49,062 nucleotides of DNA, taken from assembly GCA_017437905.1 (NCBI GenBank), contig JAFRWY010000032.1:1-49062 (forward strand), given 5' to 3'. Source of the stretch: Eubacterium sp. (GTDB taxonomy: Bacteria > Bacillota > Clostridia > Lachnospirales > Lachnospiraceae). Positions 43,125-45,180 of the stretch are shown piece by piece; positions within the stretch are counted from its first letter, which is position 1, and the number at the start of each line of letters is the position of its first letter. Below the pieces are notes generated by a model, which was given only the letters and a program-made list of their open reading frames with translations, ran no database searches and was not told the DNA's origin. A program made the translations under genes and the position numbers.

Positions 43125-43922
43125 ATGAAAATGATGAATCTCGTCAGCGGAAGCAGCGGGAACAGCACCCTGATCGGAACCGACCGGGTGACGATCCTCT
43201 GTGATGCCGGCGTAAGTATGAAGAAAATCGAAGAGTGCCTGAACACCGCAGGTTATACCGGTGGGGATATCGATGCGATCCTCATCACACATGAACATAT
43301 GGATCATGTGAAGGGCCTGGGTGTTCTGGCCAGGAAATACCATAAACCCATCTATGCCACAGACGGTACCATGGAGGCAATCCTCCGTATGTCTTCGCTG
43401 GGAAGGATCGACCGGGAACTGTTCCGGCCGTTTCGTCCGGGGGACAGCATTCAGTTGAAGGATCTGGAGATCCGTTCCCATGCAGTCCTGCATGATGCGG
43501 CAGAACCGGTCTGCTACAGTTTTACGGACGGCGGGAAAAAATGCTGTATCGCCACCGATCTGGGTCGGGCCACCGACACACTGATCCGGGAACTGCGGGG
43601 CTGTGATGTAATGCTGATCGAAGCAAATCATGATGTCCGTATGCTGGAGGTGGGACCGTATCCCTACCAGTTAAAGCAGCGGATCCTGAGTGATTACGGA
43701 CATCTTTCCAATGAGGCCGGCGGAGCCTTGATCCGTGAACTTCTGAATGAGCACGTGAAGGAGATCCGGCTCGGACATCTGTCGAAAGAAAACAACTATC
43801 CCGAACTTGCACTTATGTCGGTACAACATGAACTTTTGGGGAACCCTTACGCACCGGATCCCACGGATCTGAACATCCTGGTTGCCGGGCGTGACGCGGC
43901 GGATCCCATGATAGAATTTTAG
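43125..43922 (+). CDS. MBL-fold metallohydrolase, YycJ (WalJ) family
   Basis: A 265-residue metallo-beta-lactamase-fold hydrolase. The start MNLVSGSSGNSTLI and the metal motif THEHMDHVKG mark the YycJ group; later ligands are in HAVLHDA, CIATDLG and LGHLSKENN. In Bacilli yycJ lies with the walRK two-component system, and the protein is linked to DNA metabolism and cell-wall control; those neighbours are absent here. The start ATG 43125 has a weak ribosome binding site (GAGAAG). Confidence 0.85.
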   Translation: MKMMNLVSGSSGNSTLIGTDRVTILCDAGVSMKKIEECLNTAGYTGGDIDAILITHEHMDHVKGLGVLARKYHKPIYATDGTMEAILRMSSLGRIDRELFRPFRPGDSIQLKDLEIRSHAVLHDAAEPVCYSFTDGGKKCCIATDLGRATDTLIRELRGCDVMLIEANHDVRMLEVGPYPYQLKQRILSDYGHLSNEAGGALIRELLNEHVKEIRLGHLSKENNYPELALMSVQHELLGNPYAPDPTDLNILVAGRDAADPMIEF

Positions 43923-44025
43923 TAGTCGGATGTAAAAAATTTCCAAAATTTTTCCGGATTTGCACGTATATTATGTAAAGAGCTCCGAAAGGAGTGAAAA
44001 ATCCTAATCAATGGAGGTTAAAATA

Positions 44026-44793
44026 ATGAGAAAGAAGATCACGGCAGCTGTACTTATCGCAGCTATGGCAATGATGGCAGTCGGATGCGGTAAGGAGGAT
44101 AATGCAACGACAGCTTCAACTACCGTAGATGTCATTCATAAGGTGGATTCAACCCAGAATGAGAAAGCTACGATCCAGGTTGAAGAATCCAGTGAGGTTG
44201 AAACGGAGGCGGATCCGTCAGGTAACGAGATGGTAGGAAATCAGATCTCCGGCGGCTGGGAGAAGGCGGCTTCACCGGCGATCACACCGGAGCTTAAGGC
44301 GCTGGTTGAGAAGGCCGGTGCAGGACTGACAGGTGCAACCTATGATCCTGTCGCACTGATCGGAACTCAGGTGGTTGCGGGAAAGAACTACTGCCTGCTT
44401 TGCAAGCAGACCCCCGTTGTTCCGGACGCAAAGCCGGTATATTCCCTTGTGACGATTTATGAGGATCTGGAAGGAAATGCATCCTTCTCCAACATCGCGG
44501 CATCCACGGTTCAGGCTCCGACAGAACAGCTGGCAGGCGGTATCACGGAGGCAGGTCCGGAGCTTACGGCAGAGGCGAAGACGGCATTGGAAGAAGCGAC
44601 GGCAACACTTACGGGTGAATCCTATGATCCGCTGGTTCTGCTGGGTACCCAGGTGGTTGCGGGAACGAATTATTACATTCTCTGCGAATGCACATATTCG
44701 GATCAGAACGCCACAACATTTTATGCGATCGTGACTGTATATGCAGGTGTTGACGGAACACGGTCCATTATTGATGAGGCTTTGTTCCAGTAA
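44026..44793 (+). CDS. Lipoprotein with two tandem cystatin (stefin)-like domains
   Basis: A 255-residue predicted lipoprotein. A signal peptide ends in the lipobox AVGC, with Cys21 lipidated. A low-complexity Ser/Thr/Glu linker (22-70) follows. Two similar domains come next: about 73-158 and 168-255. Each has Gly-Gly (76-77 and 171-172), then a helix (TPELKALVEKAGAGLTG; TAEAKTALEEATATLTG), then Y-DP-x-x-LxGTQVVAGxNY (QVVAG at 115-119 and 209-213), then strands. The N-terminal glycine, helix and QVVAG loop, in this order, are those of cystatins and stefins, inhibitors of papain-like cysteine proteases. TQVVAGTNYYI is the same as I recall in human stefins. The start is ATG 44026 after GGAGG. 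Inhibition itself is inferred. Confidence 0.8.
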   Translation: MRKKITAAVLIAAMAMMAVGCGKEDNATTASTTVDVIHKVDSTQNEKATIQVEESSEVETEADPSGNEMVGNQISGGWEKAASPAITPELKALVEKAGAGLTGATYDPVALIGTQVVAGKNYCLLCKQTPVVPDAKPVYSLVTIYEDLEGNASFSNIAASTVQAPTEQLAGGITEAGPELTAEAKTALEEATATLTGESYDPLVLLGTQVVAGTNYYILCECTYSDQNATTFYAIVTVYAGVDGTRSIIDEALFQ

Positions 44794-44815: not shown

Positions 44816-44844
44816 TTGAAACGAATGGCGGGAGTCGCTATAAT
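44816..44844 (+). promoter_or_regulatory. Promoter of the UPF0237-UPF0210 genes
   Basis: TTGAAA (44816-44821), 17 bp, then TATAAT (44839-44844). The spacer and -10 lie inside the hairpin at 44825-44865, so promoter and terminator share bases. Confidence 0.75.
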
Positions 44845-44873
44845 AGGATAAGCGATTTCCGCCATTTTATTAT
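44825..44873 (+). terminator. Terminator hairpin after the lipoprotein gene, containing a promoter
   Basis: AATGGCGG (44825-44832) pairs with CCGCCATT, and TCGCT (44835-44839) pairs with AGCGA, with a symmetric GAG/TTT internal loop. TTATTATT follows. Transcripts arriving from the lipoprotein gene would fold it whole. Transcripts starting at the embedded promoter contain only its 3' arm. Confidence 0.7.
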
Positions 44874-44907
44874 TCAGCGGAAGACGAGTGAAAGGAGCAT
44901 GAAGCTG

Positions 44908-45180
44908 ATGTCAAGAACAATTATCACCGTGATCGGAAAGGATACCGTAGGTATCATCGCTAAGGTCTGCAATTATCTGGCCAGCAACAATATCAATATC
45001 TGTGATATCACACAGACTACCATGCAGGGCTACTTTAACATGATGATGATCGTGGATACGGATAAGGCAGTAAAATCCCATGAGGAGCTTGCCCGTGAAC
45101 TCACTTCTGTCGGGCACGAGATCGGAGTTCAGATCAAAACCCAGAAGGAAGAGATCTTTGATATGATGCACAGGATATAG
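44908..45180 (+). CDS. ACT domain protein, UPF0237 family
   Basis: A 90-residue single ACT domain (IITVIGKDTVGIIAKVCNYLASNNINICDITQTTMQGYF), the UPF0237 type. ACT domains bind small ligands, usually amino acids. It is placed next to the UPF0210 gene, a pairing conserved across many Firmicutes and archaea, which suggests that it regulates that protein. The start chosen is ATG 44908, 10 nt after AAAGGAG; ATG 44899 would lie only 1 nt after it. Confidence 0.92.
   Translation: MSRTIITVIGKDTVGIIAKVCNYLASNNINICDITQTTMQGYFNMMMIVDTDKAVKSHEELARELTSVGHEIGVQIKTQKEEIFDMMHRI

Follow-up and report, generated by a model that had tools for sequence, protein, structure and literature searches.

A tandem stefin-like lipoprotein of a rumen-type Lachnospiraceae bacterium as a putative surface inhibitor of foreign papain-like proteases

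The window, by which we mean the whole stretch of 49,062 nucleotides of an Eubacterium sp. genome that was analysed, contains a gene whose product appears to be a lipoprotein with two repeats of the stefin type. This locus raises the question of whether such a bacterial surface protein is a cystatin in more than its motifs and, if so, whose cysteine proteases it would inhibit. An earlier note on this DNA had considered bacterial cystatins to be uncommon. They are not new, as Kordis & Turk (2009; PMC2784779) already described bacterial stefins in eight bacterial phyla, Clostridia included, reported a three-domain fused cystatin in Polaribacter, and proposed that these proteins inhibit the cysteine proteases of eukaryotic hosts. 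A 2012 review repeats the proposed role and calls for data (PMC3594739). The family described here resembles the bacterial stefins of that account in the stefin-type domain, the retained Gly and QxVxG, the patchy spread and the presence in Clostridia; it differs in being tandem, mostly lipid-anchored, below the Pfam Cystatin cut-off and linked to a regulatory system. The word "lipoprotein" does not occur in the main text of Kordis & Turk (2009; PMC2784779), and a search of the open-licence literature on bacterial cystatins or stefins, anti-sigma factors and the rumen returned no paper on the tandem form or its regulation.

The features of the gene and its product are collected in Table 1. A Nei-Gojobori dN/dS of 0.32 against a 71%-identical congener indicates that the gene is under purifying selection and is therefore maintained. 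The hydrophobic N-terminus of the product ends in AVGC and agrees with the lipobox pattern, the Ala at position -3 being less usual. A linker of approximately 49 residues leads to two domains that are 42% identical to each other, each with a predicted helix (88-98 and 182-191) ahead of its QVVAG loop, and the loop is followed by K-N-Y-C in the first domain and by T-N-Y-Y in the second. The open reading frame has the coordinates given in the earlier note, and the lipobox signal and the two repeats with Gly-Gly, helix and QVVAG loop that it described are all present. The terminator-like repeat is absent from the list of our hairpin scan, for which its loop is too long.

Table 1: Features of the tandem cystatin gene and its product in the window.
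Feature	Position	Strand	Basis or remark
Decayed counterpart of the relatives' ECF-type promoter-like motif	43943..43969	+	Not significant on its own
Shine-Dalgarno GGAGG, 8 nt 5′ of the ATG	44013..44017	+	Read by eye from the sequence
CDS, tandem stefin-like lipoprotein, 255 aa plus stop (ATG at 44026, TAA at 44791-44793)	44026..44793	+	ORF, relatives, dN/dS
Signal peptide with lipobox AVGC, lipidated Cys21	44026..44088	+	Sequence pattern; lipobox-type N-terminus in 39/66 relatives
Thr/Ser/Glu-rich linker, residues 22-70	44089..44235	+	Predicted disordered, AlphaFold block pLDDT about 45-72
Stefin-like domain 1, residues 71-162	44236..44511	+	Family HMM; AlphaFold strand-helix-four strands
Gly76-Gly77, N-terminal trunk of domain 1	44251..44256	+	First Gly in 104/104 family domains
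QVVAG loop of domain 1 (115-119), first hairpin	44368..44382	+	Between AlphaFold strands 104-117 and 119-130
YEDLEGN of domain 1 (145-151), second hairpin	44458..44478	+	Between strands 138-146 and 152-163; loop Gly 97/104
Stefin-like domain 2, residues 164-255	44515..44790	+	Family HMM; AlphaFold
Gly171-Gly172 of domain 2	44536..44541	+	Sequence; family alignment
QVVAG loop of domain 2 (209-213)	44650..44664	+	Sequence; AlphaFold
YAGVDGT of domain 2 (239-245), second hairpin	44740..44760	+	AlphaFold
Terminator-like inverted repeat 3′ of the CDS; arms 14/16 matched, loop 11, then TTATT	44824..44866	+	By eye

Cystatin identity is suggested weakly by the single sequence and better by the family. 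The window protein reaches 17.4 bits with the Pfam Cystatin profile (PF00031) and remains under the cut-off of 22.2, which is a curated score and not a biological trait. A relative with four domains (L010, 1321-2745), 51% identical, passes the cut-off with 28.7 bits summed over those domains, and L054 scores 22.1. At E up to 0.01, the profile matches 11 of 39 relatives and three of 104 single domains, and it matches nothing in 348 genomes of the phylum, that of the window included. The four-domain relative also passes the SQAPI model (36.8 against 31) and T4 Spackle, a phage T4 model (28.7 against 27), the latter probably as an effect of summing repeats. NCBIfam contains no family for the window protein and returned only scattered lipoprotein-type matches for other members. 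In a single-sequence phmmer search of the PDB, four cystatin A sequences rank first (E 0.016-0.026), followed by weaker matches to TMEM9 (0.054), cystatin-1 (0.14) and bacteriorhodopsin (0.85). When a profile of 104 family domains was used, the first 17 matches were all cystatins (E 8.5e-5 to 0.013) and the 18th was a chorismate mutase (E 0.031); cystatins likewise filled the first 17 places with the full-length profile. Because the Pfam score lies below the cut-off, the four-domain relative passes it, and the first 17 profile matches are exclusively cystatins, we conclude that the window protein belongs to a divergent stefin branch that is largely missed by Pfam.

The predicted fold points in the same direction. 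In the AlphaFold model, built on 39 aligned sequences, both domains have a pLDDT of about 97 and consist of a strand, a helix and four strands, and the first hairpin turns at QVVAG; the helix against an antiparallel sheet is thus predicted in both, the comparison with cystatins being one of the order of elements. The best PDB matches are stefin A or cystatin A (1gd4, 1dvc) and the secreted cystatins of ticks (4zm8, 3lh4), which have the Gly-Gly trunk, the helix and QVVAGTNY in common with the window family, and in tick 3lh4 the match extends to the second hairpin. The string that the earlier note attributed to human stefins is borne out by the alignment with stefin A. Stefin A is a cytosolic single domain and the tick cystatins are secreted, disulfide-bearing single domains, whereas the present protein is a tandem bacterial lipoprotein. 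Plant multicystatins and kininogens also carry several cystatin domains per chain, but they are eukaryotic and are not known to have a lipid anchor.

The elements by which cystatins enter a protease are retained across the family. Ten loci were left out because they were near-duplicates or fragments, and 104 of the 121 domains were aligned; all 104 have the trunk Gly and the loop G, and 102 each have the Q and the V of the loop. The QVVAG loop was among our search peptides; because QxVxG is kept in 46 of the 50 domains that lack any search peptide, its conservation is not just an artefact of the search. The contact loop of the second hairpin is of the Leu-Pro-Gly type in stefins and Pro-Trp in type-2 cystatins. 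Here it reads DLEGN or AGVDG, and both the loose pattern xxDLxG (63/104 domains) and the loop Gly (97/104) are biased counts, as this loop was part of a search peptide. One Cys column is common to 87 of the 104 domains and no second Cys is conserved; therefore, the family has no conserved disulfide pair, as in stefins. It is conceivable that such domains bind without inhibiting, as surface modules for adhesion or sensing in which the loop was kept for another ligand, and this would suit both a protein that wears two of them outside its membrane segment directly after an ECF sigma factor, in the manner of anti-sigma factors, and the members fused to a DUF4367-like part. However, cystatin-fold proteins that are not inhibitory tend to lose the trunk Gly and QxVxG, and both are retained nearly everywhere in this family. 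We regard binding alone as highly improbable.

The earlier note had further supposed that the two domains might have different targets, given the Lys after one loop and the Thr after the other. This sign is not borne out, as both residues occur at both positions in two-domain proteins (domain 1, T28 and K18; domain 2, T23 and K17). The two domains have nonetheless long been separate, because the second domain of the window protein falls within a supported set of 22 rows, of which 20 are second domains and none is a first domain. On the tree, which has 112 domains, the labels first and second need about 10 changes, at least five of which are forced by well-supported branches; a single ancestral duplication is thus not simply sufficient, and gains are indistinguishable from losses in this tree.

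We found 66 relatives in genome contigs. Together with the window protein and a second copy in the same genome they make up 68 proteins, 52 with two domains, 15 with one and one with four. The tandem form, with which the earlier note was not familiar, is therefore the usual one. In the second copy (L002 1468-2655, minus strand, contig C65), the two stefin-like domains come after choline-binding repeats. Among the 64 relatives for which the N-terminus is complete, 56 carry an export signal: a lipobox in 39, an N-terminal hydrophobic segment in 14, an internal membrane segment in two and choline-binding repeats in one. With the family profile, a cystatin was detected in 20 of the 250 genomes sampled from the family to which the window belongs and in three of 348 genomes of its phylum, and a search with the window protein gave matches in 23 of 61 genomes of its genus, those in two of them (G252 and G305) lying only at the signal-peptide end. 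A ruminant is named in the titles of 13 of the 66 relatives, taken as a raw count, and 24 more bear RUG-type labels, which we presume to mark the same source. Matches also occur in Flavobacterium, Pedobacter, Pseudomonas and Planctomycetes; plasmid carriage was considered and rejected, the records for it being two weak ones, from Aureibacter and Persicobacter. A patchy, mostly tandem and exported form, found largely in rumen-type Clostridia, is new here.

The fold prediction, the two signature elements kept in nearly all relatives and the export signals support the view that the protein is stefin-like, anchored as a lipoprotein and directed against foreign C1 proteases. What the earlier note had proposed, a surface-anchored inhibitor of cysteine proteases, is thus supported in part, with inhibition itself as the part that we infer. 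We assign a probability of roughly 0.6 to the reading that the protein inhibits foreign papain-like (C1) proteases at the cell surface, those of ciliates first and those of plant feed next. The lipid-anchored protein of this rumen-type, Lachnospiraceae-like bacterium would present its two domains on a flexible linker, and the Gly-Gly trunk, the QVVAG hairpin and the second hairpin of each domain would enter the cleft of C1 proteases arriving from outside the cell and block them reversibly, presumably to the protection of the bacterium. With a linker of this length, the domains may stay inside the cell wall and protect the zone next to the membrane, and the forms with choline-binding repeats would sit further out than the lipid-anchored form. 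The likeliest sources of such proteases would be the digestive cathepsins of bacterivorous rumen ciliates and, after them, papain-type proteases of plant feed. Entodinium caudatum, a strongly bacterivorous ciliate, is described as highly expressing C01A peptidases and cathepsins B and F (PMC6925433). Of three inhibitors applied to protozoa in rumen fluid, iodoacetamide, which acts on cysteine proteases, had the weakest effect; this counts against a ciliate target, but according to the same source it did inhibit monocultures of E. caudatum (PMC6908469). If our reading is true, commensal bacteria of the rumen neutralise the very proteases by which they are digested, and the protein would offer a molecular explanation, open to test, of bacterial resistance to grazing by protozoa, a process that recycles microbial protein in ruminants. 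It would also mark a bacterial cystatin family largely missed by Pfam, with a candidate switch for sensing protease attack.

The same inhibitor could instead have the papain-type proteases of forage plants as its main target and thereby shield, in the rumen, the proteins on the cell surface and the enzymes that the cell exports, such as those that degrade fibre. Tandem cystatins would meet plant C1 proteases in fresh feed, and the ruminant titles and RUG-type labels given above fit this setting. However, the domain is not tied to the rumen, as its presence in Flavobacterium and the other groups indicates, and the present results do not separate plant from ciliate proteases. We consider a mainly plant-directed function unlikely.

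Whether the lipoprotein restrains an exported C1 peptidase of the bacterium itself was also considered. The window genome does carry a papain-like C1 peptidase of its own (L116 1402-3141, contig C70), which has 579 residues and an N-terminal hydrophobic segment and looks secreted, and cysteine peptidases are described as the major bacterial type in the rumen (PMC6908469). However, a C1 peptidase is encoded in eight of the 20 genomes of the family sample that have the cystatin and in 124 of the 230 that lack it (Fisher p 0.25), and there is thus no sign of an inhibitor that follows the cell's own proteases. Moreover, a congener without cystatin (G160) carries a C1 peptidase, and the cystatin and C1 peptidase genes lie on different contigs. 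Self-regulation is very improbable in our judgement, and control of an own C1 protease is unsupported for want of co-occurrence.

Inhibition of foreign C1 proteases remains our preferred reading, and the genomic setting bears on how such an inhibitor would be deployed. The window gene is flanked by genes for an MBL-fold hydrolase (43125-43922) and an ACT-domain protein (44899-45180), and one or more cystatin genes stand between these two in six genomes, namely that of the window and L106, L107, L108, L109 and L111, the six being those with all three genes on one stretch. Two copies stand in tandem at this site in L106 and L107, and these are cystatin genes with choline-binding repeats. The MBL and ACT genes are adjacent in three congeners without cystatin (L113, L114 and L115). 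G286 is an exception: it has both genes on one contig without a cystatin, which is located elsewhere (L117, L118).

In a minority of relatives, the cystatin gene is linked to an ECF sigma factor. Such a gene lies at most 2.5 kb from the cystatin gene in 13 of the 66 loci, always on the same strand, and the density of ECF sigma matches is 13 in 286 kb near the cystatin against two in 222 kb farther out (binomial p 0.018). The three ECF sigma proteins that were checked against Pfam contain sigma regions 2 and 4. The neighbouring membrane protein is named a putative anti-sigma factor from its position and from DUF4367, which is above the cut-off in one of four neighbours tested (L028) and below it in L009; a few members of the cystatin family are fused to the DUF4367-like part that occurs in these neighbours. 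On the tree the 13 loci are dispersed and need 12 changes against a mean of 11.7 for shuffled labels, and are thus no more clustered. In these relatives, a gene under or beside the sigma/anti-sigma pair would probably serve an inducible envelope defence. The arrangement may be compared, in its mode of working, with Sigma-V and RsiV of Bacillus, an ECF sigma and anti-sigma directed against a digestive or immune hydrolase, in which RsiV binds lysozyme directly (PMC4183432); should the present system have a ligand, it would be a protease.

In Lachnospiraceae bacterium NE2001 (L043 3941-5735), an ECF sigma gene stands directly 5′ of an open reading frame whose product combines an extended N-terminal part with a single membrane segment near residue 100 and, outside the membrane, a pair of stefin-like domains, which makes this protein a candidate cystatin-headed anti-sigma factor. 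A wider class of such factors was sought and rejected, as the N-terminal part had no match in 250 genomes of the family in a search without a positive control. One may speculate that the sigma/anti-sigma pair senses extracellular papain-like proteases and induces surface cystatins, that the NE2001 protein binds the protease directly, and that the window species has kept the shield and lost the switch; we hold this combination to be rather improbable.

The window genome has no ortholog of the sigma factor (best match 34%, compared with 79, 68 and 100% in three other genomes), the anti-sigma factor was likewise not found there, and the promoter-like motif described below is absent upstream of the window gene within three mismatches. 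Neither sigma factor nor motif was found in the nearest congener, G282. Judged by a nearby sigma factor and the motif, the window gene is not a member of the ECF sigma regulon, and a minority of relatives are. Because both sigma and motif are gone from this genome, expression of its cystatin would have to be driven otherwise. The decayed counterpart upstream of the window gene (Table 1) scores at the 91st percentile of 377 upstream regions of neighbouring genes.

The motif itself, a promoter-like element of 27 nt in the window's genus, reads GCAACATTT-N12-YTGTAT with small variants. In L105, L109, L117 and L121 it stands before the sigma operon as well as the cystatin gene; L110 and L120 have it before the cystatin gene only, and L119 and L112 before the sigma operon only; in L108 it precedes the cystatin gene and, with a longer spacing, another gene of DUF4367 type. 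When both strands of the 66 loci (558,628 bp) are scanned, GCAACANT-N14-TGTAT is found 14 times, 12 times within 150 bp 5′ of a cystatin gene and twice 5′ of a sigma gene. When each region was left out of the scoring model in turn, 18 of the 63 regions upstream of cystatin genes scored above the 99th percentile of the 377 neighbour regions, several of these loci being close relatives and not independent. All the sigma factors that share 63% identity or more with the L009 factor (those of L010, L011, L018, L024, L035 and L051) come from loci that bear the motif, which in L018 stands before the sigma operon, and we suggest that these factors recognise it. In L030, whose sigma factor is a different one (39%), a pair of its own, CGACATTT-N13-CGTTAT, stands upstream of both the sigma and the cystatin gene, with an expected number of 0.00. 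For L028 and L117, a comparison of the regions upstream of the two genes through their best 27-mers gave no information. This sigma linkage with a shared promoter-like motif in a minority of loci is new here.

General ECF control of the family can be rejected. In the random family sample, not one of the 20 genomes with a cystatin carries the motif at that gene, whereas as such the motif is widespread, with 80 rows in 64 of 250 family genomes against 21 for a backwards control. Therefore, the link is limited to a minority of the family, and the sigma factor has other targets elsewhere. In eight genomes of the genus that have the sigma locus, 11 of 14 genome-wide motif matches are at sigma or cystatin genes. 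One more of the 14, in G297, lies approximately 50 bp before the start of L138 1501-3027, in reverse strand orientation; this gene encodes a large, exported-looking surface protein and is a possible further member of the regulon. Four exact matches to GCAACATTT...CTGTAT were found on four contigs of G068, which has no cystatin, and they perhaps represent another regulon of the same sigma type.
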